This document shows, one piece after another, positions 3,649 through 22,845 of a DNA stretch of 25,889 nt (position 1 is its first letter; each line of letters opens with the position of its first letter). The notes under the pieces were generated by a model. That model had not been told where the DNA came from and did not search any database. It saw only the letters and a list, made by a program, of their open reading frames with translations. The translations under genes and the position numbers were made by a program. The DNA is taken from the IMG/VR virus record IMGVR_UViG_3300024273_001935, positions 1 to 25,889 of that record, one strand, 5' to 3'. This DNA is from a virus.

Positions 3649-4878
3649 ATGAAGAATGTTTTAATTTTGACTCCGGACCGGGTCGGTAGCACGTTGCTGC
3701 AACGGTTAGTTACAATTTACATGTTGCGCAAGGGAGGGGATAAACCTGTCATTAATTTACATGAATTAACCAACGGTTTAATGAAATATTATAATCCGCT
3801 ATTCAACCAGGAAGTGCTAGGAAAACCTCAAGACGGTAAGTCCTGGGGATACTATCAGAGTCTAACCGACGTTACTGAATTATTAAACTCTGCTGATCAT
3901 TATAAAACATCAAGATTGGCACATTATCATATTAAAAATCGTCAAGACACAATAGCCGAGCAGGTTCCGTTTTATAACTATCTAAATGATAACTTTTACA
4001 TAATCAGTTGTCAACGAGATAACTTGTTTGAACATGCATTAAGTTGGGTAATACAATCGCATAGTAAACGATTAAATGTATATAATCCCGCAGAAAAAAT
4101 TGATATGTTTGAGGATATTTACAAAAACGGGATAACTGCAACCCAAGAGGGATTGAACAAATATCTTACTCAGTACTTAGATTATACAAAATGGGTAGAC
4201 AATCATTTCAATGTACAATCATATTTTAATTACGACAGAGATCTGAAGAATATAGAGCAATATATTTTAGGATTAGACTTCATGCGTGATCATACGGAAA
4301 ATACATGGAAAGACATGTTTGGACAAAGTTGGGAAGATTGGAATACTTGTCATCGTATGTTGCCTAATTTAGTATTAAATCAGCCTGCGCCATCTGCTAA
4401 TACACTTAACATAACTGTTAATACAAGTAATGTAACTCAATCCCAATGGGAAAGTGTTGCCGGGCCGGACTGGCCCAAATCATTGGCGCTGGTGGCCGGC
4501 GATCCGGCAGACACTACCCTACCGCATATACAGGAAGAAATTAGCAGAATCTTCAATAAAGTACAAACAGTTACAGTATCTCAAGACAATTATAATTTTC
4601 TCAAAGTACAATTACCACAGTATCAACAAACACAGAAAGAATTAAATAATCTGGTCGACAACAAAATACTAGTAACAGGCGTTCCTATTAAACTTCAGTC
4701 CTTAAAAGAAAAGAAACATATAATTAAGAATTTTGATCAATGCATTGACTGGTACAATCAATGGGTAACTGACAACAATTATGGTAAACTATATTTTACT
4801 GATGAGTTAAATGTCCTGGCAGAAGCAGAAGAAAATAGACTGGCAGCGTCAATTATATCGACAAATTTGCTCAACTAG
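3649..4878 (+). CDS. Sulfotransferase-like P-loop protein, 409 aa
   Basis: The start MKNVLILTPDRVGSTLLQRL has the shape of a 5'-phosphosulfate-binding loop (TPDRVGST, residues 8-15) of PAPS-dependent sulfotransferases. The segment IISCQRDNLFEHALSW (about 118-133) resembles the 3'-phosphate motif, with Arg123 and Ser132 at roughly the usual spacing. The rest, including an Asn/Gln/Thr-rich middle and a helical C-terminal part, was not recognised. If active it would move sulfate from PAPS to a glycan or other acceptor. It is one of three plus-strand genes, is visibly AT-richer than the lysis genes, and its last 30 nt overlap the 3' end of a convergent SGNH gene. Family assignment is by motif only. 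Confidence 0.55.
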   Translation: MKNVLILTPDRVGSTLLQRLVTIYMLRKGGDKPVINLHELTNGLMKYYNPLFNQEVLGKPQDGKSWGYYQSLTDVTELLNSADHYKTSRLAHYHIKNRQDTIAEQVPFYNYLNDNFYIISCQRDNLFEHALSWVIQSHSKRLNVYNPAEKIDMFEDIYKNGITATQEGLNKYLTQYLDYTKWVDNHFNVQSYFNYDRDLKNIEQYILGLDFMRDHTENTWKDMFGQSWEDWNTCHRMLPNLVLNQPAPSANTLNITVNTSNVTQSQWESVAGPDWPKSLALVAGDPADTTLPHIQEEISRIFNKVQTVTVSQDNYNFLKVQLPQYQQTQKELNNLVDNKILVTGVPIKLQSLKEKKHIIKNFDQCIDWYNQWVTDNNYGKLYFTDELNVLAEAEENRLAASIISTNLLN

Positions 4879-5691
4879 CCATTTAGCAGTTACCAAATCA
4901 AAATGATGATAGTCTCTGGCATAGTCTAACTGTTCAACTTCTAGTAGATTATGTACAGATTTACAATAGTCTACTTCGCTCAACTCTAGTAGACGATCGT
5001 ACACATTGTACACAATGTCGAGCTCATTCACTATACTCGGCGGCAACTTAACAAAATCTTTAAGGCTTGTAATAGAGGGCCAGCTAGCATCTTTAACATC
5101 GTTGTATATTTTAATTAATAGTTGAATATCGTCGCCGTGGTGGGCCCTTGGAATTAACATATGTCTAATTTCAGGACCAATGACTGCCGAAATGCATGAT
5201 TTAAAATTCAGAAAATCGTCAAGGTGCGACGCGTTGACTAATGACAATCGACGACGTTCATCCGACAGCAAGATGTCTTTATGTTCTCTGCGATTCGTGT
5301 AGCTCCACATGATAACAATATTAGCCGGAGCTACTTCGTTAATAATTGATTGTGTTTTTCGTGCTATCCATTCGTTACTAGCACCATCCATACTGACATT
5401 GATACATCTACGTCCAGTTTGTTGTTGTAACAAATACGGCCATGTATGGGCAAGCGGACTGCCCACTCCTACCGTAAAGCTATCACCTATACACCATATG
5501 GCATTTTTCAATTCTTCTACGGAATCTGGCCATTCTGCGTCACGAAACCCACGACTATTATGGCTATATTCAACTTTATATGGATAATTCTTAAAATGCG
5601 TTTTATCTAAGCAATTCTCAATGCTATCAATCCCACTATAATCCCAGCGGGCATTGACACGGGAATGTAATATAAAATCAGGTAATATCAT
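4849..5691 (-). CDS. SGNH/GDSL-family hydrolase-like protein (copy A)
   Basis: A 280-aa protein with block I GDSFTVG at 69-75 (nucleophile Ser71), a block II-like NVSMDGASNE (98-107) containing Gly and Asn, and a C-terminal DYHH (260-263) giving the Asp-xx-His pair. SGNH enzymes are esterases, lipases or carbohydrate acyl-modifying enzymes; the substrate cannot be read from the sequence. A NSRGFRD segment (45-51) before block I is shared with SGNH copy C (18092-18814, NSHGFRT), so A and C are paralogues of the same layout. It overlaps the dCMP deaminase gene upstream by 14 nt and, tail to tail, the plus-strand sulfotransferase-like gene by 30 nt. Confidence 0.78.
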   Translation of the reverse strand: MILPDFILHSRVNARWDYSGIDSIENCLDKTHFKNYPYKVEYSHNSRGFRDAEWPDSVEELKNAIWCIGDSFTVGVGSPLAHTWPYLLQQQTGRRCINVSMDGASNEWIARKTQSIINEVAPANIVIMWSYTNRREHKDILLSDERRRLSLVNASHLDDFLNFKSCISAVIGPEIRHMLIPRAHHGDDIQLLIKIYNDVKDASWPSITSLKDFVKLPPSIVNELDIVYNVYDRLLELSEVDYCKSVHNLLEVEQLDYARDYHHFDLVTAKWLVEQICRYN

Positions 5692-6196
5692 TTAAATGCT
5701 CCACCATCACAGAACTTTTGGTCAAAAACTCTACACCATTGGTATCTCGGTAAGTGTGTTTGTAATATACATGCCGGATGCCACTTTGATAGATCAGCTT
5801 GGCACAATCCAAGCAGGGTGCATGTGTGACGAACATGCTGGCACCATCTCCTGATTCTGCACTGCGGGCCAATTTGGTAATGGCATTGGTTTCAGCATGG
5901 AGACATTCTGGTTTGGTTTTTAGTCCGTATCGTACATCACGCTGAACTCCTTCGTGCCACGATTCGTAAGGGTATTTTTCGTTAAAGGTATCTAGGTCAA
6001 GCCAGCCGCCTGCGCCGTTGTCCCATACTCGATCTTCACAATTGTTGTCCCAACCAGCAGGCATACCGTTGTAGCCAATTGAGATAACTCGATCGTCTCG
6101 GACCACAATAGCACCCACTTTTAAGCGCACAGCATGACTGAGTTCTGCAAATGTTTCTGCGGTTTTCATGTATGCTTGTTTTACTCTGTCTTTCAT
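5678..6196 (-). CDS. cd: dCMP deaminase
   Basis: A 172-aa cytidine/deoxycytidylate deaminase. The zinc site is clear: HAE at 100-102 (His100 ligand, Glu102 proton shuttle) and PCLDC at 127-131 (Cys128 and Cys131 ligands). The N-terminal GAIVV...SIGYNGMPAG segment (29-48) matches phage and bacterial dCMP deaminases. The enzyme turns dCMP into dUMP, feeding thymidylate synthesis during replication; members are commonly regulated by dCTP and dTTP. T4 gene cd is the family reference. It overlaps the DUF2061 gene upstream by 4 nt (ATGA) and the SGNH gene downstream by 14 nt, indicating coupled translation in one operon. Confidence 0.93.
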   Translation of the reverse strand: MKDRVKQAYMKTAETFAELSHAVRLKVGAIVVRDDRVISIGYNGMPAGWDNNCEDRVWDNGAGGWLDLDTFNEKYPYESWHEGVQRDVRYGLKTKPECLHAETNAITKLARSAESGDGASMFVTHAPCLDCAKLIYQSGIRHVYYKHTYRDTNGVEFLTKSSVMVEHLNDIT

Positions 6197-6402
6197 TTAC
6201 TCTCGTTGCCCCATTTAATTTTGTTCCATATACGCTCGTGTACAAAGTACAACACAGTGTTGAGTGTCAATTGTATCACTGCTATTGTGCCAGAAATTGC
6301 TATATCTCCCAGTACAAGATAAGATATAGCAAAAGTAGCAGTTGATCCAGTGATGCGCCAACTCAGTGTTTTTGCCATGCTGCGGGTAGATGTATCAGTC
6401 AT
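6193..6402 (-). CDS. DUF2061-type small membrane protein
   Basis: A 69-aa protein with two predicted membrane segments (about 19-36 and 38-54) and the ending VLYFVHERIWNKIKWG. The SWRITGS...FVHERIWNKI pattern matches the DUF2061 family of small membrane proteins, whose function is unknown. It overlaps both neighbours by ATGA junctions: the end of the GIY-YIG gene upstream and the start of dCMP deaminase downstream. Confidence 0.8.
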   Translation of the reverse strand: MTDTSTRSMAKTLSWRITGSTATFAISYLVLGDIAISGTIAVIQLTLNTVLYFVHERIWNKIKWGNESK

Positions 6403-7013
6403 TTAACCTCGCAGTTGTCAAAATGTTTCTTTTTCATGCTGCCTAAATATCTACCAGTAGCCTTACAATGCGGACATATAACATCGGGAGCATTTTTAAT
6501 AGTGAAGGCAGATTTTAACCGTGATTCTTTGGTGATAACTTGATTTGCTCTTGCTAATCTTATTTTTTCTTTTATATCGTCTGTCATTACTTGTTGCTTT
6601 GCCTTATCGCGTTGTCTGGCGTGACGGCCGGGATCATTGGCCCAGGCGCGCTTGGCGCTAATAGATTGTGCTACTCTGTATTCAGGATTTTTTCCGCGTT
6701 TTAGTGCAGCCGCTTTTAATTTGTCACGAACTTCTTCAGTAAGATTAAACATGAGATTGTTTCTGTTGTTATAAACATCATCGGAAGTAATATCTAAATC
6801 ATCTAACAATTTAGATTCCAGAAGTTGACATTCAGCCATCATACCCCTATGCAATATCTTTCTCTCCCAAGAATATGATGGGTTGCGGTAATCTTCCCAA
6901 AAGGTCGCCGATGCTGACGAGCAAATATAGCCGTCATCTTCTGTTCCCTTATGAAATCCTATATAAATTTTATTCAGTGCTAAATTAGTCCATTGATATA
7001 CAAATGAGTCCAT
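6399..7013 (-). CDS. GIY-YIG family (Seg-like) homing endonuclease with C-terminal zinc finger
   Basis: A 204-aa protein. The N-terminal FVYQWTN...KIYIGFHKG (residues 4-23) is a variant GIY-YIG core, followed by DGYICSS (27-33), a pattern seen in free-standing phage homing endonucleases. Glu61 or Glu66 is a candidate metal-binding residue. The middle is basic and helical and would bind DNA. The C-terminus has a CPHC...HFDNC finger (Cys180, Cys183, His197, Cys201). Such enzymes cut related phage genomes lacking the gene and spread it by recombination. No intron boundary is seen: it stands between complete genes, 45 nt downstream of the kinase/nucleotidyltransferase gene, with AAGGAGA and a late-type motif before its start. 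Confidence 0.8.
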   Translation of the reverse strand: MDSFVYQWTNLALNKIYIGFHKGTEDDGYICSSASATFWEDYRNPSYSWERKILHRGMMAECQLLESKLLDDLDITSDDVYNNRNNLMFNLTEEVRDKLKAAALKRGKNPEYRVAQSISAKRAWANDPGRHARQRDKAKQQVMTDDIKEKIRLARANQVITKESRLKSAFTIKNAPDVICPHCKATGRYLGSMKKKHFDNCEVK

Positions 7014-7028
7014 ACTATTCTCCTTAAG

Positions 7029-7037
7029 GTATTTATT
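7029..7037 (-). promoter_or_regulatory. Late-type promoter motif before the GIY-YIG gene
   Basis: Minus-strand AATAAATAC, directly followed by the AAGGAGA ribosome site and 16 nt before ATG 7013. It is the third exact copy of the nine-base motif seen before endolysin and holin. The resulting leader would be very short. It lies in the 45-bp gap between two minus-strand genes. Confidence 0.4.
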
Positions 7038-7058
7038 ATTGTGCTAACGCCCAAACAT

Positions 7059-7913
7059 TTATGTTAAGCCCATATCCTTGCGAATTTTAGTGGCAGAGAT
7101 TTGCTGTATCTCATCCGGAAGATCAATTTTGTTTATTTTATAACCCACATCACGACCATAATTAATTTCAATAATGTTTGGTACTATTTGTATTTCATAC
7201 TGACCCTGATATATAGGGTCAAGGTCTCGTCTAATGTAGTCAGTTACTTGTTTAAGAGCAAATGGATTGCTACCGTTCCAGCCTTGACAATCTCGTATCT
7301 GTACAATTACTTGCCCTGTTTTGGCAATAGCAATATCAAATAATGCTCTATGCCCTTGATGCCAGGGCTGATATCTCCCTAGTAGCATGACAGTTTCTTT
7401 TTTCCAATCAAACACAGGACGCCGACGGTTATTTAGAATATGCTCGCCGATGAACTCTGCCCACTTGTCTGCATCTTGTTCAGTTACTCTGAAGTCATAT
7501 ACTTCCGGCGGAATGAATGCTCGGTTTGTGTCATCGAACCTGCCAGCTTCAATGGTATCAACCCAAATGGTCCAGTCTGCTTTGAAGTTATTGCGCATCT
7601 CTACCAGTGGTGCAACAAAGTCGCATATAACAAAGTCTCCGGTGCATTTTACAGCAAACTCAAACATACGCAAACTTTGTCTAATACGGCCTTCTTTGCT
7701 GAAGTCCCAGTCGTTGAATTGTTTACGAATCGCGTCTGCATTGAACCAGTCGACTTTGCTAGTATACGAGATTGGCGGCAAATCTAAGTTCAGCATACGC
7801 TCTAAAGGCATTGTTTGTACTGAAGAATTTTCTTCCAAGTACTTTTTAAGGGCTGTTGCTAATGTAGTTTTACCAGAGCCCGGCAGGCCCATTACTAATA
7901 TGCGTTGTGTCAT
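7059..7913 (-). CDS. Bifunctional P-loop kinase (APS-kinase-like) fused to an HxGH nucleotidyltransferase
   Basis: A 284-aa two-domain protein starting MTQRILVMGLPGSGKTT. Domain 1 (about 1-165) has Walker A GLPGSGKT (9-16), then DWFNADAIRKQFNDWDFS and GRIRQS, and an FDDTNRAF segment, resembling adenylylsulfate kinase. Domain 2 (about 173-284) has GRYQPWHQGH (179-188, HxGH at 185-188) and ISATKIR (272-278), the two ATP-binding motifs of nucleotidylyltransferases such as NMN adenylyltransferase. Order and folds also recall PAPS synthetase, but domain 2 is closer in pattern to NadM/NadR-like enzymes. ATG 7913 is chosen because it overlaps the upstream stop as ATGA. Two sulfotransferase-like genes lie in the same operon. 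Confidence 0.7.
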   Translation of the reverse strand: MTQRILVMGLPGSGKTTLATALKKYLEENSSVQTMPLERMLNLDLPPISYTSKVDWFNADAIRKQFNDWDFSKEGRIRQSLRMFEFAVKCTGDFVICDFVAPLVEMRNNFKADWTIWVDTIEAGRFDDTNRAFIPPEVYDFRVTEQDADKWAEFIGEHILNNRRRPVFDWKKETVMLLGRYQPWHQGHRALFDIAIAKTGQVIVQIRDCQGWNGSNPFALKQVTDYIRRDLDPIYQGQYEIQIVPNIIEINYGRDVGYKINKIDLPDEIQQISATKIRKDMGLT

Positions 7914-8539
7914 GTTGTTTTTTTCGATGCTTGTTTTGCTAAGTCGTCTACCCAATGATGATCAACCTGCGTGATGTATTTACTGTTACTGTCGTTGGCT
8001 AGTATTTCTTTCAATTCTGGGCTATTGTAATCAATCGGGAAATCTAATGTACGGCTAATTTCTTTAAGATATGTTTCTTTGTACAAGTGCAACAATTCAA
8101 AACTTAAAAAGTTTATATCGGCAAATCCTGCAACTCCTGCAACTTTGTCCAAGGCCAGTGGCAAGGACTCAGTATCCCTTACGCGCTGTTGCTGCATCCT
8201 AAGAACAGTTTGGTCACGACCCAACACAGCAATCTGTACCACAATGTTCAACCGGGTTAATTCTGCAATAAACTGTTCAAAGTCGGGGACAGTCACATCG
8301 CCGTTGAGCATATAAGGAACACTAACGCTGGCCACATAGTAGTTGCTCTGACTCCAATCAAACTCGTTTAACAATGCTGGTTGCAACCAGCATTGCGCAA
8401 ATGGTTCTTGATCATGCCCAATCCAGTATGTATCTAATAGATTGCGCCAGCCAAACACTTGTGGATGCAGAGCAAATATTTTGCTCCACATATGATTACC
8501 CGATCCTTGAGGTCCGGTGATAATCAACAACTTCTTCAC
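7910..8539 (-). CDS. Sulfotransferase-like P-loop protein, 209 aa
   Basis: It starts with GTG, reading MKKLLIITGPQGSGNHMWSK; the GPQGSGNH loop (9-16) is a P-loop variant seen in sulfotransferase-like proteins of aquatic phages. A GRDQTVLRMQQQR segment sits where the 3'-phosphate-binding Arg motif would be. No signal peptide or membrane segment is seen, so it is probably cytoplasmic. The GTGA junction with the 2OG oxygenase upstream and the ATGA junction with the kinase/nucleotidyltransferase downstream show tight translational coupling. Substrate unknown. It could instead be a nucleoside or glycan kinase-like NTPase. Confidence 0.5.
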   Translation of the reverse strand: MKKLLIITGPQGSGNHMWSKIFALHPQVFGWRNLLDTYWIGHDQEPFAQCWLQPALLNEFDWSQSNYYVASVSVPYMLNGDVTVPDFEQFIAELTRLNIVVQIAVLGRDQTVLRMQQQRVRDTESLPLALDKVAGVAGFADINFLSFELLHLYKETYLKEISRTLDFPIDYNSPELKEILANDSNSKYITQVDHHWVDDLAKQASKKTT

Positions 8540-9225
8540 AGTGTGTATATTGTAGCAGAATTAGCAGCAGCAAGCAACCTACGAGTCTTGTCAGTTTTGA
8601 GTCCTGTTATCTGCAACACCGGACGCATGCTACGGCTGGCATTGGCAGTGGCATGTGGCACATTCTCCCAATCAAAGATATGCACAGCACCAGCTCGCCA
8701 ATTGCTGTATGTACAAGTGCCATATGAGTAGAATTGCCCTGGCTCCCAATCTGCCAACATAACACTCATACGGATAACACGCTCGGAATCGTCGGGGCAG
8801 CGTTCTTGTAACTTGTCAATATGCAGATTAAACATCTGTCCCGGTTGCTGATAGTGCATACGAATCTTGCCATCTTCGATGCCGAAGTATTCGCTCATCT
8901 TGGTCAGTGTGGGCAATGCACTGATATCAAACACAGCATCTGTCAACTGTAGATCAACTGGTGCGCCTGTGGTACGCAAATCGTTTTCTTCTTGAGTCAG
9001 CATAGGACTAACAGTGTCGTCTGTGTTGCTGTAAAACTTACGAGTTGCCCAGGTGATCGGCTTGCCCTGTGCTAGTTTAACTTCCTCTGTCCAGTCACCT
9101 TCAAAGTGTCCCAGCAATGTAAACCATTCTCCTGGAACGTCTACACGGTGATTGTCAAAGTGATATGTACTGTGGTCAACACACCAATCCCAACTACTGG
9201 TGTAGTCATCCTGAGTCTTATGCAT
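8536..9225 (-). CDS. 2-oxoglutarate/Fe(II)-dependent oxygenase-like protein
   Basis: A 229-aa protein with a double-stranded beta-helix pattern: HIDK at 135-138 (His135 and Asp137 as iron ligands), then VMLADWEPGQFYSYG (155-169), VPHATANAS (189-197, His191 as the third ligand) and RPVLQITG (201-208), where Arg201 or Arg198 may hold 2-oxoglutarate. This H-x-D...H...R layout is that of aspartyl/asparaginyl hydroxylase-like enzymes, common in T4-like aquatic phages. Substrate unknown; protein or small-molecule hydroxylation is possible. Its AAGGAA ribosome site and first 8 nt lie within the end of tctA, so it is translated with the transporter genes. Confidence 0.72.
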   Translation of the reverse strand: MHKTQDDYTSSWDWCVDHSTYHFDNHRVDVPGEWFTLLGHFEGDWTEEVKLAQGKPITWATRKFYSNTDDTVSPMLTQEENDLRTTGAPVDLQLTDAVFDISALPTLTKMSEYFGIEDGKIRMHYQQPGQMFNLHIDKLQERCPDDSERVIRMSVMLADWEPGQFYSYGTCTYSNWRAGAVHIFDWENVPHATANASRSMRPVLQITGLKTDKTRRLLAAANSATIYTL

Positions 9226-10660
9226 AATCTATTCCTTTATTTTTGTTTGTGACGCTACGAACTACGATGTATACTGCAACCAACAGCGTGACTATGAATA
9301 TAGGCCGGGTTAGTAAATCTTCTATGTTGTATAGTTGTGCAGTTTGTTTGATGTAGCTTTCCAAGCGTTCGGCCACTACATATGTGACCAACACTGCGGG
9401 TCTGCTTATGTCGAAGTATTTAAGCAAAGTTCCCAATGCACAACAAATTGCCAAGATTGCAATATCCTGCCAGCCGCCGGTGTATTCAAGATTGGCCCAG
9501 ACCATGATAGCAATTATAATTGTAGCGTATATCCAGTAAGGTATATCCAGTATCTTTATAATGTACTTCATAAAGAACAAACTCAGCAGGCCAACCAATA
9601 TAGTCCCGCCTACAAAGCCCGCACCCAGTGTCCAGATAAATTTGCTATCTTCCAACAGCGCCGGTGTACCCAGTTCAACACCAAAGTACATAAACAGTGC
9701 CATCATGATGGCAGCAAACGGGGCAGCAGGAATACCAAACAACACAGTGGGCAGCATACTGGCTACCTTTTGTGCATTGTTGGCACCTTCGCACCCCAGT
9801 AGTCCTTTGGGATTGCCGTTGCCAAATGTATCTTTAGGATGCTTTGCCACAGTGGCGCCGTATGCTAAAAAGTCACCAATGGCTCCGCCTACTCCCGGCA
9901 GTAAGCCTGTAACAAAACCGATGAAGCCACCGCGCATCATGTCGCGCCAGTTTGTTATACAGTCGCGAAATCCTTGTCTAACCTGTGGCCAGTAGTTGTC
10001 CAACTGCGGAACTCGCGTGTGTCGTTCTTTAAATCCCCAGATAAGTTCTGGTATTCCAAACAGTCCCGAAATTAGCGGGATCATCTGTAGTCCTGCGCCG
10101 AGATATTCCCACCCAAATGTATATCTAAACACCCCAGTGGAAGGCTCTTGTCCAATCATACCAAGCCATGCGCCCAATGCAATTGCTATGATACTTTTAT
10201 AAAAGTTCTTACTGGCAACAAAGCCCACACAGGCCAATGACATTATCATGAAACCAGCAAACTCTGGAATGCCAAACCACAGAACAATTTTACCATACAA
10301 CGGCATCAGTGCAAATGCCAGTGTACCGTACAGCACACCATTGAATGTGCTGTCAAAAATAGCAATGCCCATTGCTCTGCTGGCTTCGCCCTTCTTGGTC
10401 ATTGGGTAGCCGTCAATAACACAGGCCGCTGTGGTGCTGGCACCAGGAATACCAGTTAAGATACTGGTATAACTGTCGGCGCTGGCACACGCAGCAGTGA
10501 TAGCTGTTAAAAATATAATACCTGCATACGGATCACTTAGAAAGTAAGGTGCAATGCCAAACACTGTGATCAGTGCTGTGGTAACTCCTGCAATAGGAAT
10601 AATCCCTATCAGCAGTCCGTACAATGTTCCCAACAGTATCCATCCTGCGTATATCAGCAT
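9218..10660 (-). CDS. tctA: Tripartite tricarboxylate transporter permease TctA
   Basis: A 480-aa, very hydrophobic protein with about 11-12 membrane segments along its whole length, close to the usual ~500 aa. Typical TctA motifs are intact: the N-terminal GTLYGLLIGIIPIAG, TSILTGIPGAS (about 65-75), and in the second half GLLPGVGGAIGDFLAYG, with the second PG-x-GG loop, and GIPAAPFAA. TctA is the large inner-membrane subunit that moves citrate-like or other carboxylates using an ion gradient, with substrate delivered by the periplasmic TctC. It starts 4 nt after the end of tctC and overlaps the oxygenase gene by 8 nt. The small TctB subunit, normally between tctC and tctA, is absent. It appears full length, and nothing suggests decay. 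Confidence 0.93.
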   Translation of the reverse strand: MLIYAGWILLGTLYGLLIGIIPIAGVTTALITVFGIAPYFLSDPYAGIIFLTAITAACASADSYTSILTGIPGASTTAACVIDGYPMTKKGEASRAMGIAIFDSTFNGVLYGTLAFALMPLYGKIVLWFGIPEFAGFMIMSLACVGFVASKNFYKSIIAIALGAWLGMIGQEPSTGVFRYTFGWEYLGAGLQMIPLISGLFGIPELIWGFKERHTRVPQLDNYWPQVRQGFRDCITNWRDMMRGGFIGFVTGLLPGVGGAIGDFLAYGATVAKHPKDTFGNGNPKGLLGCEGANNAQKVASMLPTVLFGIPAAPFAAIMMALFMYFGVELGTPALLEDSKFIWTLGAGFVGGTILVGLLSLFFMKYIIKILDIPYWIYATIIIAIMVWANLEYTGGWQDIAILAICCALGTLLKYFDISRPAVLVTYVVAERLESYIKQTAQLYNIEDLLTRPIFIVTLLVAVYIVVRSVTNKNKGIDYA

Positions 10661-10663
10661 TGT

Positions 10664-11734
10664 TTACTTCTTTAAGAGTTCTGGTTTAAAAACGCTAGGA
10701 AAGCCGTATGCTTCTTGATTCCAGCGCACAGCACCGTTGAGTGCCGGCTCTGTTACCAACTTGAATAGTTCGCCAATCACTGCGTCGCCATCGGCACCAA
10801 CAATCCATCCGTATTGACCAGCATCGCGTTCAATAGCATCCATTGTTTCTTTATCGGCTAGCATTTTAGTCATTGCAGTACGCAGTGTAGCTGTGTTGGG
10901 GTTGCCTTTGTTTACCCAGAGAGATTTCTGTATTACATCACGCCAGTTGCGTGTCAAGCGATATGCTTCGTACAGTTCGCCCCGTGGTAATTCGCCCCAT
11001 GCTTTTTTGTAAACATCTTCAAATTGTGTACCAGGAAAGTTCACATCAGCAATTTGTTTCTTTTTCGCCAAGTCGTAAACACCATGTGTGAACCATACTT
11101 CGTTTGTTTTGGCAACATCATCACCGGTGTAGAATTTGAACCAAGCTGCTGGGCTTTCACGGGTAGTATTGAACTCTCCTCGCATAAAGCCCAGGCGCTT
11201 TTCGTTGCCCTTGACACCATTGACCCAGATTACACGCTTTTTAAAGCAGGCTAGATAAGCGTCGATACTGCCGTTTTTTTGCGGGCCGCACACCAACATG
11301 GCCATTGCTGCACCGTCGGGTTCATAGCCCGAGCCGCCTGCTACTTTGAATGTGCTTGTTTTTGTATCAGCTTCTCGGCTCTTGCCAACAACAATGTCAA
11401 GATTCATCATGCCAATTGCACTGTACTGACGATAGTCGTAATCGACATTGTCCAGTAAGAATGAAACACCGTTGCCACCGTGAGCAACCATGATCATTTT
11501 GGGATCAGTGCGTAGTTTGTTATGGAACTCGTTGAATCCCGGAATATCTCGTGCACCGGGAATGTGACGAACAACCACTGGTTCATCTGTGAACTTGCTC
11601 AGGCCTCGAGCAATGATTCCGGCCCATACACTGGTACCTTGCCCGGGACCTTGCGGCACAATCAAAGTATAGTCAGCTTGCGCAGCGCTCATGATACCTG
11701 CACTGGCCAGTAATGCGATTAGTAATTTTTTCAT
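10664..11734 (-). CDS. tctC: TctC-like periplasmic carboxylate-binding protein (Bug family)
   Basis: A 356-aa protein with a signal peptide MKKLLIALLASAGIMSAAQA and likely cleavage after AQA (residue 20). The mature protein begins YTLIVPQGPGQGTSVWAG and continues with VVVRHIPGARDIPGFNEF, matching the N-terminal carboxylate-binding part of Bug/TctC proteins. The C-terminal ADKETMDAIERDAGQYGW region also fits. It is somewhat longer than the usual ~320 aa. It captures a carboxylate in the periplasm and passes it to TctA. ATG 11734 is chosen over an in-frame start at 11764 because AGGAAA precedes it and it begins the signal peptide. It is first of the tctC-tctA pair and 13 nt after a P-loop gene. 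Confidence 0.88.
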   Translation of the reverse strand: MKKLLIALLASAGIMSAAQADYTLIVPQGPGQGTSVWAGIIARGLSKFTDEPVVVRHIPGARDIPGFNEFHNKLRTDPKMIMVAHGGNGVSFLLDNVDYDYRQYSAIGMMNLDIVVGKSREADTKTSTFKVAGGSGYEPDGAAMAMLVCGPQKNGSIDAYLACFKKRVIWVNGVKGNEKRLGFMRGEFNTTRESPAAWFKFYTGDDVAKTNEVWFTHGVYDLAKKKQIADVNFPGTQFEDVYKKAWGELPRGELYEAYRLTRNWRDVIQKSLWVNKGNPNTATLRTAMTKMLADKETMDAIERDAGQYGWIVGADGDAVIGELFKLVTEPALNGAVRWNQEAYGFPSVFKPELLKK

Positions 11735-11747
11735 AGTCGATTTCCTT

Positions 11748-12371
11748 TTAAATAATAGTAACACTGATATCTGCAGACTGGTAGTCTTGAAAATATTCAG
11801 CCGGGGGGATTTTGATGCCCAGTGTATTGCACAGCATCTGATTGTTTGCAGGCGCTAAGCCTGCATACTTTCGAGTAGCAGCAAGTATATTGGCATTTTG
11901 CTTTTGTATAATTGTTGCCATTGTTTTTAAGTCTTTGTAGTATTCTGCATAGTCGGGGTAAGTGATATCAAAGTGGCCGCACTTTACCCACCATCCTAAG
12001 CAAGCGTCATCTGGCCTATGCACAAGTACAATAGGACAGTCGGGCCATGTCGCTTTGATATAGTCAATGTTGTCAGCAAACACATGACTTTTAATAATAC
12101 GAACGGCCCCGGGGGCGGAAAACGGACGGTCAAACTCTGCCTCGGCACTCAGTGGGGAAACTTCACTAAGGTGATCGAAAAACCGTCCAAACTCCATCCC
12201 GGGATCAAAGTATGCACCGGTATGCATCAGCTGCATGGTGCCCGGAGCATCGTGATAATAAGTTCTCGCTTCGCTGTAATCACTACGATCGATATCAGGG
12301 CTGTAGTAAATGTTTTTGGTCACGCTGGACCATTTAGAGCCGGGTGTTCCCACTACGAAAATATATTTCAA
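11748..12371 (-). CDS. Sulfotransferase-like P-loop protein, 207 aa
   Basis: It probably starts with TTG at 12371, preceded by AGGAAA; a TTG at 12404 is in frame but lacks a ribosome site. The product begins KYIFVVGTPGSKWSSV, a loop like the phosphosulfate-binding loop of sulfotransferases. VRIIKSHVFADN (from about residue 89) and CPIVLVHRPDDACLGWW are in the order and style of the second core strand and the Arg-containing 3'-phosphate motif. Substrate unknown. It is the first gene of the minus-strand operon that continues into tctC and tctA. The 80-bp divergent gap to the plus-strand methyltransferase is AT-rich and holds a weak late-like ATAAATAAAT, but no confident promoter. Confidence 0.5.
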   Translation of the reverse strand: MKYIFVVGTPGSKWSSVTKNIYYSPDIDRSDYSEARTYYHDAPGTMQLMHTGAYFDPGMEFGRFFDHLSEVSPLSAEAEFDRPFSAPGAVRIIKSHVFADNIDYIKATWPDCPIVLVHRPDDACLGWWVKCGHFDITYPDYAEYYKDLKTMATIIQKQNANILAATRKYAGLAPANNQMLCNTLGIKIPPAEYFQDYQSADISVTII

Positions 12372-12451: not shown

Positions 12452-13189
12452 ATGAATACCAAGATTTTTAAGCTGATTAAAGAGAATTTAGAACTTGCCT
12501 TTAATTTACCCAAGTACTCTGCAATTTGTGCAGACATCTCTGAGTCCACTGTGGTGGATGCACTGCCTTGGACTCCTGCTCGTTATCGCAAGTTCAAAGA
12601 CGCTGTAGAAGCAAAACTTGCAATGGAGGACTGTTCTTTCACAGGCACACTGAACAGCATTGTTGACAAACTAAGCGAACGCTATATCACTCGTTTCTTT
12701 GGAGAAATCTGGAAACCACGCACAGGTGATTACGATTACACAGGGTGGGCATTGGCAGAGGCAATTCAAAAGCAACACCCTAAGGCTGTGCTGGATGTGG
12801 GCTGCGGGTATCATCCGTTTAAAGGTCGTATCGATAACTTGGTTGGTATTGACCCTTACAACCATGCAGCAGATCTTGAAGTGGATATCCTAGACTATCG
12901 AGTAACTCCGGCCAGCTTTGATCATATCATTGCACTGGGATCTATCAACTTCAACAGCAAGGACGAAATCCAAGCACGATTTGCGCATTGTGTAACTTTG
13001 CTCATGACCGGTGGCAAGTTTTACTTACGGGCCAATCCTGGTATTACACACAAGACCGGACCGTATGTTGATATCTTCTCGTGGACTTTCGAAGTAGCAA
13101 ATGAGTTTGCAGAAACTTATAATCTAAAGTTGCTGGAATTTAAACGAGATGCTAATGACAGGTTGTATTTTGTGTATCAAAAACTTTAA
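12452..13189 (+). CDS. Class I SAM-dependent methyltransferase
   Basis: A 245-aa protein. AVLDVGCGYHPFKG (about residues 114-127) is motif I, followed by NLVGIDPYNHAADLEVDI, giving the acidic motif II residue. FDHIIALGSINF (about 155-166) fits motif IV, and LLMTGGKFYLRANPG (about 183-197) fits the post-IV strand. This is a Rossmann-type methyltransferase of the small-molecule/protein kind, without the SPPY/NPPY motif of DNA base methylases. Acceptor unknown. AGGAAA precedes the ATG. It is one of three plus-strand genes, is followed by a strong intrinsic terminator, and overlaps the convergent SGNH copy B by 38 nt. Confidence 0.85.
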   Translation: MNTKIFKLIKENLELAFNLPKYSAICADISESTVVDALPWTPARYRKFKDAVEAKLAMEDCSFTGTLNSIVDKLSERYITRFFGEIWKPRTGDYDYTGWALAEAIQKQHPKAVLDVGCGYHPFKGRIDNLVGIDPYNHAADLEVDILDYRVTPASFDHIIALGSINFNSKDEIQARFAHCVTLLMTGGKFYLRANPGITHKTGPYVDIFSWTFEVANEFAETYNLKLLEFKRDANDRLYFVYQKL

Positions 13190-15049: not shown

Positions 15050-16315
15050 TTATTTCTTTTCAAATACCCATAGGTCTTCGAAGTTGCCGCCCACTGTTTT
15101 TTTAGCTTGCCTGGAACCACTGATAGCACTCCACTGAACTCTATGCTGTGAGTATAGAGGTAAATGTTTAAGAACTACATCTCTCATATCTTGACTGATC
15201 TGTACTTCTTCCTTAGCTTTGTTTCTATAGTTAGAAATAACAAAGCCAAATTTAGCTCCGGGCTTTAGTACTTCGCAGGACAATTTAACTGTTTCCTCCC
15301 AGTAACCTTTTAACCAATCATTATAGTTTGGGAAATTAGCAAAACTTTGATCTTCGCTATCATAAATTTCCAAATCAAAATACGGAGGACTAAACAATAC
15401 TGCATCGACTTGATTTTTGTACTTGACATCAAATTGATGCTTGCTGGCCAATTGTTCACTGGGGCATAGATATAAATCTACATTTTTTTCCGGAAGTTCA
15501 AATAAACTATTTTCTCTAATAGAGTTATATTCTTGGTGTAATAGATTGCCATTATTCACTACACCCGGGATAACATCCGTGGCAATGAAATTTTTCCAAT
15601 TAGTGCTGTAAAAACCTAATTGATAAGCATTCCATCCCATAACAGGTGCAAATATAGTGTCACCCTTGAATACATTTTCCATTATCCCTTTAAAAGTAGC
15701 TGGATTAAAGACACTAGCACGATTGGCGCCAATCATAAAGTCCAAACAAAATTGACTGTAATTATCATCAATTTTACAGATATGGTCAAAGAACGCAGGC
15801 GCTGCTAGGCTATTACGAATCTTAAACTCTTCGAACATTATTTTAAGTAAGCCGAAACAAAACTCACTGTCGTTGTTATAAAGTTTTTTAGTATTATAAA
15901 AGTTTTCGAAATTGATATTTTTACAAATTCTGCCGTATTTGCTGTTAGTTCTTCCACTAAAAGTATTCTCGTCAAATATAGTTTTAGTAGGAATATCGAA
16001 ATAAAATTTTAAATTTTCAGTTAGCGAGCCGTAACGGCGGAACCATTCTGTCAGTGCTTTTTCGGGTTCCAGTACCAGCATCTTATACATTTTTTGTTTG
16101 TATAAATCTAGTCGCTGTTTACGATCATCTTTCTTCGCGACGCGATCAATAAAGGTGTCAATGTCGCTGCGCACTGCAAAGTTGCCTGTTTTATCGCTGA
16201 TATTTAAAACGGATAACTTTTTGCAAAAATCTTCATACGAAATTTGTTTGTTAAATTTAAATAACGCTAAAAAATCAGTCAGTGTAAAAATCAATTGTGG
16301 TGTCATATTGTGCAT
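15050..16315 (-). CDS. DNA methyltransferase (N4-cytosine/N6-adenine type)
   Basis: A 421-aa protein with the amino-methyltransferase motif IV SPPY at 309-312 (FSPPYFDLE). Upstream, FAPVMGWNAYQLGF (about 222-235) followed by IATDVIPG fits the SAM-binding motif I and its acidic partner. Downstream, EVLKPGAKFGFVISNYRNK fits the following strand, and RQAKKTVGGNFEDLWVFEK is a typical end of such methylases. The N-terminal ~200 aa are not recognised and could recognise the target. It methylates DNA bases, protecting phage DNA or pairing with a nuclease. It lies 49 nt downstream of a candidate restriction endonuclease on the same strand and is AT-rich, like that gene. ATG 16306 (residue 4) is an alternative start. 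Confidence 0.82.
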   Translation of the reverse strand: MHNMTPQLIFTLTDFLALFKFNKQISYEDFCKKLSVLNISDKTGNFAVRSDIDTFIDRVAKKDDRKQRLDLYKQKMYKMLVLEPEKALTEWFRRYGSLTENLKFYFDIPTKTIFDENTFSGRTNSKYGRICKNINFENFYNTKKLYNNDSEFCFGLLKIMFEEFKIRNSLAAPAFFDHICKIDDNYSQFCLDFMIGANRASVFNPATFKGIMENVFKGDTIFAPVMGWNAYQLGFYSTNWKNFIATDVIPGVVNNGNLLHQEYNSIRENSLFELPEKNVDLYLCPSEQLASKHQFDVKYKNQVDAVLFSPPYFDLEIYDSEDQSFANFPNYNDWLKGYWEETVKLSCEVLKPGAKFGFVISNYRNKAKEEVQISQDMRDVVLKHLPLYSQHRVQWSAISGSRQAKKTVGGNFEDLWVFEKK

Positions 16316-16325
16316 TCTTAAAATA

Positions 16326-16332
16326 GTATTTA
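16326..16332 (-). promoter_or_regulatory. Late-type TAAATAC motif before the DNA methyltransferase
   Basis: Minus-strand GTAAATACTATT in the 49-bp gap between the candidate endonuclease and the methyltransferase, ending 11 nt before ATG 16315. It could give the methyltransferase its own late transcription besides readthrough from the endonuclease promoter. Confidence 0.3.
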
Positions 16333-16364
16333 CGTCAATTTCGAATTACTATTTTAATTTCTAA

Positions 16365-17126
16365 TTAATTAAATTGAATGTCGGTGTCTCGGTGCACGAC
16401 AAATTTTTCGGGCCAGTTATTATGCAGATGAAATTGCGGACAATGATTATAGTCGCCTGCTGGTCCACCGGAATTTTTCATTTGCATAAAAAAGATGGGC
16501 TTGCCGATTTCCCCAGCTTGTTCGCTTGGAATTGCACATCTTAATACAGTTCCTTTGGGCATTGTAACCCAAACACAAGTTTCAACAATCCAGTCTACTA
16601 ACCGATTCACATCAACAGCACAAAAGCCGCCTTTTTTCTTGTTGGCCCAGATAAGCCAAGATGCTTTATCCTCGTCTTTTAAACTTTGTAAAAGTAAGAT
16701 AGCAATCTTTCGATTATTGGCATTGAACCACAATGGCACCTCGTCCCAACTCGGAATATTGGAACAGTGCAATCGTTTGTATTTGAGTTCGGTAGTAGAC
16801 AAGTTTAACCCAGCGGCCCATTCTGCCCATTGTGCATTGTCGTTTGTGCCTAGAAAGCGATCTAGCTTGTTGTAGATGGCTGGCGGCATGTTAAGTTGTG
16901 ATGCTAAACTACGCAGGGTAGGTAAATGTACTTGAGTATTTTTTCCCGACGCGTATTTTACACTTACACGGGTTTGTGTACTACCGTTGATGCCGATTAG
17001 ATCGCCCTTGGTTCGTGTACTACCATCAGTTTCCACTCGCTCGAAATTAAATATCTTAGCAACATATTCTTTAAGAACATCGTTCTTTTCTAAGTCACGA
17101 CCTGCCCAATATTCATTACTGCCCAT
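16365..17126 (-). CDS. Candidate restriction endonuclease (PD-(D/E)xK-like), partner of the DNA methyltransferase
   Basis: A 253-aa protein of no family I can name. Two segments look nuclease-like: GDLIG (41-45) followed by RVSVKYASGKNTQVH (53-67), where Asp42 and a SxK (55-57) could form a variant D...(E/S)xK site with Gln65; and FFMQMKNSGGPAGDYN near the C-terminus. The strongest argument is context: same strand, 49 nt before a DNA methyltransferase, in an AT-rich two-gene unit with its own perfect sigma-70 promoter. ATG 17126 is preferred over TTG 17138 because TTTGGAG precedes it at good spacing. Alternatives are a methylation-related accessory or specificity protein. Function is inferred, not shown. 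Confidence 0.5.
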   Translation of the reverse strand: MGSNEYWAGRDLEKNDVLKEYVAKIFNFERVETDGSTRTKGDLIGINGSTQTRVSVKYASGKNTQVHLPTLRSLASQLNMPPAIYNKLDRFLGTNDNAQWAEWAAGLNLSTTELKYKRLHCSNIPSWDEVPLWFNANNRKIAILLLQSLKDEDKASWLIWANKKKGGFCAVDVNRLVDWIVETCVWVTMPKGTVLRCAIPSEQAGEIGKPIFFMQMKNSGGPAGDYNHCPQFHLHNNWPEKFVVHRDTDIQFN

Positions 17127-20726: not shown

Positions 20727-21179
20727 TTATTTTGATGCGTCAACTACTCTTTTTCGCAAGCTGCTAGAGCTGAAAGAGTGATCACGCTGATTGAACACCA
20801 ATTCAATATTTCGATGTTCGCATATTCCTGCACCTGTGAACTCTTTGCCATGATATTCTTCACCTAAAATACGAACATCAATAGGCAATGTTAGTAGGAT
20901 ATCTTCAATATCTTCTTCTGTATTGTACACAATGATCTCGTCTACATATCGCACAGCACTGAGACTAATCTGACGCTCAACAATGCTTTGAATAGGTTGA
21001 TTTTTTTCAGGCCTCTCCCATTGTGCATTGTTTTGCAGTGCTGCAATAAGATAGTCACAATGATTCTTGGCCTGACTCAGCATGGCAATGTGTCCTGCAT
21101 GCAGCAGATCAAACTGAGAAAAGGTAATTCCAATCCTCAGTCCCTTGCTCTTTAGTTCTTTGATCTTGTTGAATATCAT
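20727..21179 (-). CDS. Cytidylyltransferase-like HxGH nucleotidyltransferase
   Basis: A 150-aa single-domain protein. GITFSQFDLLHAGHIAML has the HxGH motif at 27-30, and SSSSLRKRV near the end is the second nucleotide-binding motif (the ISxTxxxxRI equivalent). Size and pattern match TagD/RfaE-type enzymes that join CTP (or ATP) to glycerol phosphate, a sugar phosphate or a similar alcohol phosphate, releasing pyrophosphate. In this context it may activate a precursor for glycan or surface modification. It starts 1 nt after the end of the radical SAM gene, so the two are probably cotranscribed and may act in one pathway. Substrate cannot be read from the sequence. Confidence 0.85.
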   Translation of the reverse strand: MIFNKIKELKSKGLRIGITFSQFDLLHAGHIAMLSQAKNHCDYLIAALQNNAQWERPEKNQPIQSIVERQISLSAVRYVDEIIVYNTEEDIEDILLTLPIDVRILGEEYHGKEFTGAGICEHRNIELVFNQRDHSFSSSSLRKRVVDASK

Positions 21180-21180
21180 T

Positions 21181-22845
21181 TTAATTTTTTAGAAGGTCAG
21201 TTAATTCTGGAAAAGTGGCAATTAAATGGTGATTATGATAATTGTCAAGTGGGGTAATGTTGTTCCAAAACTTAGCAGAGTCAAACTCTTTGTTATTGTT
21301 TATCTGATGCAGTATGCTTTCGTATCCATAGGTAGCTCTCCCAAGTGAATCTAAAGGCCGAAGCCATGTGAGATGGCTGTTATATTTTTCCCTGATTTGA
21401 TCTTTTAAAGAGTCAGGAGCACTGTCGACTCTGAGGTAGTCTGGCGTGAACAACATTTGTATATTAAAGTCTGTTGGATTAATTAATCCTTGATCAACCC
21501 ATGATCGATGAAAATCCGGTAAGTGCAGTGCATTGATGATAGATGTGGTTGCTGATATATAAAAATCAATATCGGGGCGGTTAACTAACAGTTCTTTTCT
21601 AAATTTTAGAACATCATTCCATTTTTGCCCAGATCTTAGATATTCTCCTCGTTGATGCTCACCGTCGAGGCTAGCGCCGATACTTATTTTTTTAAAATTT
21701 TTCCACACATCAAATATAGATTTACCACTAAGTGATGATTTTGTCATATTGATATTATAAATTAACTCAACCTCGTGTCGTCCGCGACGATCTAATTCTT
21801 CTACTATTTGATAAAATTGATCAATCATCAATGGTTCGCCGCCGGCAAAATAGATACGTTCTACAGTATCAATATGTTCCAGGATTTGGTCATGTATGTC
21901 ATATGTATTTTTTCCAGCAATTTGTAATGCTTTTACAGATTTATCAATCTGTCCAATTGCTACTGCAGGCTGATACCACGATGAAGAATGCTGTGGTCCA
22001 CAACTTCTGCAGGACAAATTACATAAATTATTAAATCTTGCATCTAAATAATATAAATTAAAATCTTTTAAGAATCCATCAACATGAGTAGATTCAATGT
22101 TATTGACATATTTTATAAAACGTCGATTAGTACTTTTCCGTAGGGTATCTCGTCCAAAAGATTCTTTGGTATAACAATTGTTACATGATTTGGGTTGTTT
22201 ACCTTCCAACATATCTTTTCTTAGTTGTTTAGATATATCTGAATTCCATATTTCTTTTAAAGAATTTTTTGAACAATCACCTAAAATTTCAGTAGATTCA
22301 CAACAGGGTTTAACTTTACTAGATGGGTCAATCATCATACTTGTCCACGGTATCATACAAAAATTATTGCTTTGAAATAACAATTGCTTGTGTTTTGCAG
22401 ATAAAGAATCAACAAGATCGGTATTTTCTAATTTTTGATACTTGATGTAACTAGCCTGATTGGTAAATTCTAATGTATGATAATCCCCATCACATTCATG
22501 TATATGAACCGGAATCTTGTCAAAGCTGACATTGGTTAATACCCAATTGTATTCGTCTTGTATTTTTGTATTAGATGTAACTACGCAAACAAAAAAATTA
22601 GAAATATCAATGTCATTAATAATGGCTTGCAAACTTTCTAACATTATGCCACAACATGACTCTTTTTTGTATGAGTCTTGAGTAATTGTAAAAATTAATC
22701 TATCTGTTGAGTCATACGATTCTTTATGCAGTTTTTTTATTCTGCTGTACAAGTCTTCGACGGACAGGATGTAATCGTCACAATTAATAATATCAATTAC
22801 ATTAAATTGTAATTTAATATTATCAATACATTGATCTATTGTCAT
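21181..22845 (-). CDS. Radical SAM protein with an N-terminal SPASM/twitch-like domain
   Basis: A 554-aa protein. The radical SAM cluster motif CNLSCRSC (Cys275, Cys279, Cys282) is followed by YFAGGEPLM, the SAM-binding GGE motif. Before this core lies a cysteine-rich segment: FCMIPWTS (Cys163), KPCCES (Cys181-182), Cys191, LKEIWNSD, then CNNC (Cys221, Cys224), which matches the SPASM/twitch auxiliary Fe-S pattern but stands N-terminal rather than in its usual C-terminal place. The first 150 aa are not recognised. Relatives modify peptides or other molecules by radical chemistry; the substrate here is unknown. It is visibly AT-rich and lies between the GroES-like gene (2-nt gap) and the cytidylyltransferase. 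Confidence 0.85.
   Translation of the reverse strand: MTIDQCIDNIKLQFNVIDIINCDDYILSVEDLYSRIKKLHKESYDSTDRLIFTITQDSYKKESCCGIMLESLQAIINDIDISNFFVCVVTSNTKIQDEYNWVLTNVSFDKIPVHIHECDGDYHTLEFTNQASYIKYQKLENTDLVDSLSAKHKQLLFQSNNFCMIPWTSMMIDPSSKVKPCCESTEILGDCSKNSLKEIWNSDISKQLRKDMLEGKQPKSCNNCYTKESFGRDTLRKSTNRRFIKYVNNIESTHVDGFLKDFNLYYLDARFNNLCNLSCRSCGPQHSSSWYQPAVAIGQIDKSVKALQIAGKNTYDIHDQILEHIDTVERIYFAGGEPLMIDQFYQIVEELDRRGRHEVELIYNINMTKSSLSGKSIFDVWKNFKKISIGASLDGEHQRGEYLRSGQKWNDVLKFRKELLVNRPDIDFYISATTSIINALHLPDFHRSWVDQGLINPTDFNIQMLFTPDYLRVDSAPDSLKDQIREKYNSHLTWLRPLDSLGRATYGYESILHQINNNKEFDSAKFWNNITPLDNYHNHHLIATFPELTDLLKN

Follow-up and report, generated by a model that had tools for sequence, protein, structure and literature searches.

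A TctC–TctA pair without TctB and its neighbouring enzyme genes in uncultivated aquatic viruses

Results

Gene organization of the locus

The window, by which we mean the entire stretch of DNA that was analysed, is the linear virus record IMGVR_UViG_3300024273_001935 of 25.9 kb. It contains a tightly spaced run of minus-strand genes in the order S1, tctC, tctA, O, S2 and K, and upstream of this run, divergently oriented, lies M (Table 1). S1 and tctC are 13 nt apart, and S2 overlaps K by 4 nt. The start codon of tctC is ATG and its product begins with the predicted signal peptide MKKLLIALLASAGIMSAAQA; for S1, a TTG start was inferred from homologues beginning with MKYIF. A scan for promoters and terminators gave no more matches than were found in shuffled sequences, and neither the tRNA search nor anything else provided a clue to the host.

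Table 1. Genes and features of the locus
Feature	Position	Strand	Basis of assignment
TctA-type membrane transporter subunit, 480 aa	9218-10660	-	PF01970, 312 bits, model positions 3-422 of 423 (full length); clade tree
Diverged TctC/Bug-type periplasmic binding protein with predicted signal peptide, 356 aa	10664-11734	-	AlphaFold (AF2) fold; weak profile matches
Gap of 3 nt from tctC stop to tctA start	10661-10663	-	Too short for TctB
O, 2-oxoglutarate (2OG)/Fe(II)-dependent oxygenase	8536-9225	-	Motif and AF2 fold; 8-nt overlap with tctA
S1, sulfotransferase-like P-loop protein	11748-12371	-	Sulfotransfer_3 in homologues; synteny
M, SAM-dependent methyltransferase-like protein	12452-13189	+	Weak methyltransferase Pfam matches; DVGCG motif
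S2, second P-loop protein	7910-8539	-	Family alignment; synteny; 4-nt overlap with O
K, P-loop kinase (APS-kinase-like) with apparent nucleotidyltransferase (HxGH)	7059-7913	-	PF01583, 31.9 bits; recurs beside the pair

On both sides the pair is flanked by phage genes (PhoH, clamp loader, virion proteins and endolysin), and a contig of 167 kb, L004, is largely collinear with the window. These flanks, the collinear contig and the many independent viral contigs described below rule out a chimera of bacterial and phage DNA. Thus, we are dealing with cellular-type metabolic genes residing inside a phage genome, as is characteristic of phage auxiliary metabolic genes. The original prediction of a full-length TctA next to a full-length TctC-like protein, separated by merely 3 nt and set in phage surroundings, agrees with the gene map and with the strong PF01970 match.

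Several other genes of the window deserve mention. In K, the APS-kinase match covers only the P-loop region and the HxGH motif was read by eye; given its position beside sulfotransferase-like genes, K might take part in the synthesis of PAPS or a similar donor. At positions 15050-17126, a DNA methyltransferase-like gene adjoins a gene for a 250-aa protein of no assigned family. Both are absent from the collinear L004 and might represent a small restriction-modification pair. At positions 20727-22845, a SPASM radical SAM protein gene adjoins a cytidylyltransferase-like gene, possibly for sugar or peptide tailoring. The window additionally encodes other proteins of the P-loop, GDSL-like and radical SAM types.

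Distribution of the pair among viruses

Scanning IMG/VR with the window TctC as a single sequence produced 60 loci, and in 60 of 60 TctA is adjacent to TctC, although some loci are cut off at their end. Searching more widely with a profile brought the number of stretches encoding TctC relatives to 424, of which the best 80 loci were analysed. TctA adjoins TctC on the same strand in 72 of these 80. Both gene orders are represented (A-C in 38 loci, C-A in 34), gaps between the two genes range from -76 to +23 nt except for one of 254 nt, and neither order has TctB between TctA and TctC. As for the remaining eight loci, TctA is slightly more distant in two, and another, L192, represents a second TctC copy on contig L053, which encodes a further TctC and a TctA within a few kb; the others are truncated or have no TctA within the locus DNA. 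Among 50,697 records of cultured phages, TctC had no matches and TctA only seven, all of them distant (26-29% identity). Judging by these scans, the TctA/TctC pair is common in uncultivated aquatic viruses.

Sequence features and phylogeny of TctA

A duplicated motif, GxxxGxxxGxxPGxG, is expected in TM1 and TM7 of TctA, and the window protein does not have the full pair. PGxG is retained in TM7 (GFIGFVTGLLPGVG), as it is in 26 of 27 clade TctAs, the pattern not being found in L071. In TM1 (GTLYGLLIGIIPIAG), PGxG is replaced by PIAG, and loss of the Gly after Pro is common to all 27 clade members (PxAG or similar). The motifs, originally described as intact, are therefore intact in TM7 but not in TM1, and TctC falls outside the known families altogether (see below).

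In a tree of 67 TctAs rooted at midpoint, the viral sequences and those of three metagenome-assembled genomes (MAGs) constitute a single group (support 100/100) with a stem of 1.74 changes per column. This group joins bacterial TctA-TctB fusions, apart from other TctAs (support 100/98). According to this tree, phage TctAs are a deep, almost purely viral clade. Since their nearest bacterial relatives are TctA-TctB fusions, phage TctA probably arose by losing the fused TctB domain, which is the simplest reading under the midpoint root. Comparison of synonymous and nonsynonymous changes, proposed along with the original prediction, revealed saturated synonymous sites and pN of 0.14-0.28 for tctA and tctC; purifying selection acts strongly on the two genes.

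Search for TctB

PF07331 (TctB) matched nothing in 30 viral records (15-343 kb), namely the window's own and 29 related ones, many of these records being fragments and possibly incomplete. A hydropathy scan of the window detected no small multi-TM ORF, and the same scan of the flanks of 34 related loci detected no widely shared TctB candidate. We also considered a DUF2061 protein (6193-6402) as a stand-in for TctB, but this protein has only 69 aa and does not accompany the pair in every locus, and the idea is unsupported. TctB, a 4-TM subunit, is poorly conserved (PMC5812351). Because of this, and because TctC itself escaped Pfam, a very diverged TctB encoded elsewhere in the phage genomes could escape detection. 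Having looked both for a TctB elsewhere and for a chimeric joint, we found neither, and the original claim of a phage-borne TTT-type pair without TctB has held up. As far as sequence can tell, the window locus is a two-component relative of TTT rather than a complete TTT.

Identity of the binding protein

The window TctC has no match among Pfam, NCBIfam or PHROG families, and among 29 homologues a single protein matches PF03401, with an E value of 0.14. Searched against the PDB, the profile of the 29 viral TctC homologues picks up Bug proteins weakly, with a best E of 0.012. The AF2 model of the window TctC is good (pLDDT 89.9). When it is compared with PDB folds, each of the top 16 matches is a binding protein of the Bug/TctC type, among them Polaromonas TctC, Bug27, MatC, TphC and RPA4515. 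The identity of TctC thus rests on modelled fold and synteny. A weak Pfam match (E=0.016) had raised the possibility of a GDSL lipase, which was overruled by the Bug/TctC fold. One viral contig, L053, encodes two different phage-type TctCs (4623-5669 and 7968-9053) and one TctA, an arrangement that suggests two substrates served by a single permease.

Bacterial relatives and origin

Outside viral records, near relatives of TctC were found only in three MAGs: Marine bacterium B5-7 (L074), a Candidatus Pelagibacter MAG (L075) and an Omnitrophota MAG. TctA and TctC are adjacent in all three, with no TctB in between. The Candidatus Pelagibacter contig is 7.9 kb long and carries DUF6267, which we take to be a phage-type family; for this reason the contig is probably phage DNA within a bacterial bin. 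In B5-7, positions 4001-8819 comprise TctA and TctC and, after them, S1, M and a 2OG oxygenase other than O, all among ordinary chromosomal genes; this is possibly a cellular version of the cassette considered below. Around each of the three MAGs we sampled genomes (398, 285 and 297), and the close pair was present in one genome per sample, without a further close copy. Consequently, the search for a donor clade, advised at the outset, identified no simple recent host donor.

The next relatives are bacterial TctCs of 350-400 aa encoded beside a TctA with TctB fused at its C-terminus; such systems were found in eight genomes (G279, G415, G082, G190, G393, G427, G719 and G976). In several genomes (L081, L082, L083 and L085), TctC and the fused TctA-TctB adjoin a PrpF-like gene, named by eye, hinting at aconitate-type substrates.

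These relatives bear on the question of whether phage TctC and TctA might need TctB after all and borrow it from a TTT system of the host. Two of the three MAGs having the pair do encode TctB (three copies in G030, one in G031), and in the nearest bacterial relatives TctB is part of the system. However, there it is covalently fused to TctA, so that a host TctB supplied as a separate protein would need to be compatible with a TctA that has diverged deeply (1.74 changes per column). Moreover, the Omnitrophota MAG, which may be incomplete, has the pair and no detectable TctB in 2.1 Mb. On balance, we regard borrowing as unlikely. Of the three options entertained in the original prediction, the one in which the pair works without TctB is best supported, by the Omnitrophota MAG and by the absence of TctB clade-wide as tested.

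Cassette enzymes and their linkage to the pair

In most loci of the first scan, the pair is accompanied by M, S1 and O. The latter has the facial triad and the Arg for 2OG binding (H135/D137/H191/R201; HxD...H...R), invariant in 26 homologues. Its AF2 model (pLDDT 93.3) has the double-stranded beta-helix fold, and the top PDB matches are mostly 2OG dioxygenases, including proline 3-hydroxylase and AspH, at modest TM-scores. By motif and modelled fold, O is a 2OG/Fe(II) oxygenase. The assignments of S1 and M are weak. Sulfotransfer_3 is detected in 11 of 23 S1 homologues at E<=0.5 (best E 2.6e-5) and the S1 family profile has zero matches in the PDB, while the M family shows a conserved DVGCG motif and weak methyltransferase Pfam matches.

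Linkage was examined in 16 records of 96-343 kb. O is present in 15 of these records, and in 14 of them its nearest copy lies no more than 400 bp from the pair; 15 records have M, with the closest copy at most 2.9 kb away in 14. The product of single-record chances is about 1e-20 for each of the two genes, a value that is no true probability since the records are related. Cassette membership varies, and L009 and L071 are without an oxygenase nearby. Linkage alone does not prove that the enzymes and the importer share a substrate; other phage accessory genes cluster there too. The original prediction was right about a phage-borne TTT-type pair, but it missed how common the pair is in uncultivated viruses, how far TctC has diverged and that the transporter belongs to a larger cassette with O, M and S1.

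An exchangeable transporter slot

A scan with the oxygenase profile returned 79 O loci. Both TctC and TctA are present in 51 and one of them in 4, a lone canonical TctC in 7 and a sodium:solute symporter (SSF) in 4; the other 13 have no recognised transporter within the locus DNA. The lone TctCs match PF03401 with 58-86 bits and the symporters match PF00474 with 49-85 bits (three tested in each case). Loci of both kinds have the same M and O nearby and, in all but one, also S1. In L233 (3876-4850), L234 (4425-5378) and L238 (4392-5384), from phages closely related to that of the window, the lone PF03401 TctC has M on one side and S1 on the other, and TctA is absent within about 6 kb. The oxygenases of these phages are the closest to that of the window, at 75-81% identity. 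The PF00474 symporter occupies the slot in L248 (3505-4962), L250 (3892-5364) and L295 (3761-5245); the next gene in L248 encodes an amidohydrolase (PF04909). Because unrelated transporters occupy one slot in sister phages, uptake is likely what is selected, and slot exchange argues for uptake as the selected property. From its gene content, we read the cassette as a conserved group of enzymes accompanied by an uptake module that can be exchanged.

The lone TctCs raise another possibility, namely, that the working part is the binding protein, feeding TTT permeases of the host, with phage TctA being secondary. There is precedent for a phage binding protein as a working part in cyanophage-encoded PstS. 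The original prediction had similarly allowed for TctC alone rewiring host TctAB; this does not fit the present phage, which has its own TctA, although sister phages carry a lone canonical TctC at this locus. Members of the clade almost invariably encode a conserved, full-length TctA, and the window TctC is so far from bacterial TctCs that it is probably suited to no TctA but its own. We therefore think it very unlikely that feeding host permeases is the main role of the pair.

The slot also helps in judging whether the pair transports anything at all. It could instead alter the envelope so as to block superinfection, or aid the modification of surface polymers by the cassette enzymes. The clade-wide change of PGxG in TM1 fits such a role, as do those other proteins encoded in the window (P-loop, GDSL-like and radical SAM) that are of the surface-polymer-tailoring sort. 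Nonetheless, the binding protein keeps the Bug/TctC fold, TM7 keeps its motif, and sister phages fill the slot with unrelated transporters (SSF or lone TctC). A non-transport role appears to us highly improbable.

Discussion

We consider it probable, though far from certain, that the phage pair is a TctB-free, binding-protein-dependent importer that serves the enzymes of the cassette. Assuming a Gram-negative host, its Sec machinery would export the binding protein to the periplasm, where TctC would capture an organic acid-like solute. TctC would then hand the solute to phage TctA in the inner membrane, and TctA would move it inward, TctB being dispensable. The imported compound would most likely be used by O, M and S1, either as a tailoring substrate or, in the case of the oxygenase, as 2-oxoglutarate or its precursor. 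TTT substrates are diverse, and the "citrate-like" substrate proposed originally is a guess from the family name.

It is inviting to generalize these observations. Large aquatic phages may share an uptake-and-tailoring cassette with constant O, M and S1 and a swappable slot filled by TctC-TctA, a lone TctC or an SSF symporter. TctC-TctA would then be a working TctB-free transporter that came about by the loss of a fused TctB and, through long viral evolution, became a family of its own. So broad a reading we put forward tentatively, as one that could nearly as well hold as fail. It suggests that such phages make infected cells import and process an acid-like nutrient.

These findings matter in several respects. 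To our knowledge, no function of TctB is known, and an abundant natural clade that is seemingly without a formerly fused TctB provides a direct route to asking about its role. Slot exchange is good evidence of selection for solute uptake, going beyond the mere carriage of host genes. Finally, the 2OG oxygenase, methyltransferase and sulfotransferase-like genes of aquatic phages, which have been neglected, become testable as parts of one pathway.

TTT-type genes have been noticed in phages before. A tctA domain was reported for SUP05 phages (PMC4164917), and a myovirus carrying norB/nirK was described as having tricarboxylate transport genes in their vicinity (PMC8115048). These, too, are TTT-type genes, and they lie on marine phage contigs; in the accessible text of the two papers, however, they are mentioned in passing, without analysis of TctC, TctB or gene neighbours. 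In the open literature, leaving aside subscription papers and preprints, we found nothing written on the phage TctC or the lack of TctB, nor on the cassette and its slot. Thus, phage tctA was already known in passing, whereas we found no open-literature report of the diverged TctC of a TctB-less pair, of the cassette or of the exchangeable slot.

A TctA that does without TctB is not without parallel. Archaeal stand-alone TctA is thought to be functional without TctB (Winnen et al. 2003, as cited in PMC5812351; PMC5898192). The archaeal proteins are mostly without TctC too, whereas the phage pair has a binding protein. Bacterial TctC plus TctA-TctB fusions are nearest to phage TctA (about 300 bits) and TctC (about 53-91 bits), and in them, too, TctC directly adjoins TctA. 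However, the fusion ORF is about 650-680 aa long and includes a C-terminal TctB, in contrast to the phage TctA of about 480-507 aa without the TctB domain. Compared with the TTT system TctCBA (TC 2.A.80; Salmonella TctCBA), the phage pair has in common a PF01970 permease beside a binding protein of the Bug/TctC fold. It differs in that TctB is missing, TctC lies outside PF03401, the TM1 Gly after Pro is lost, and the genes occur in either order and in phage genomes.
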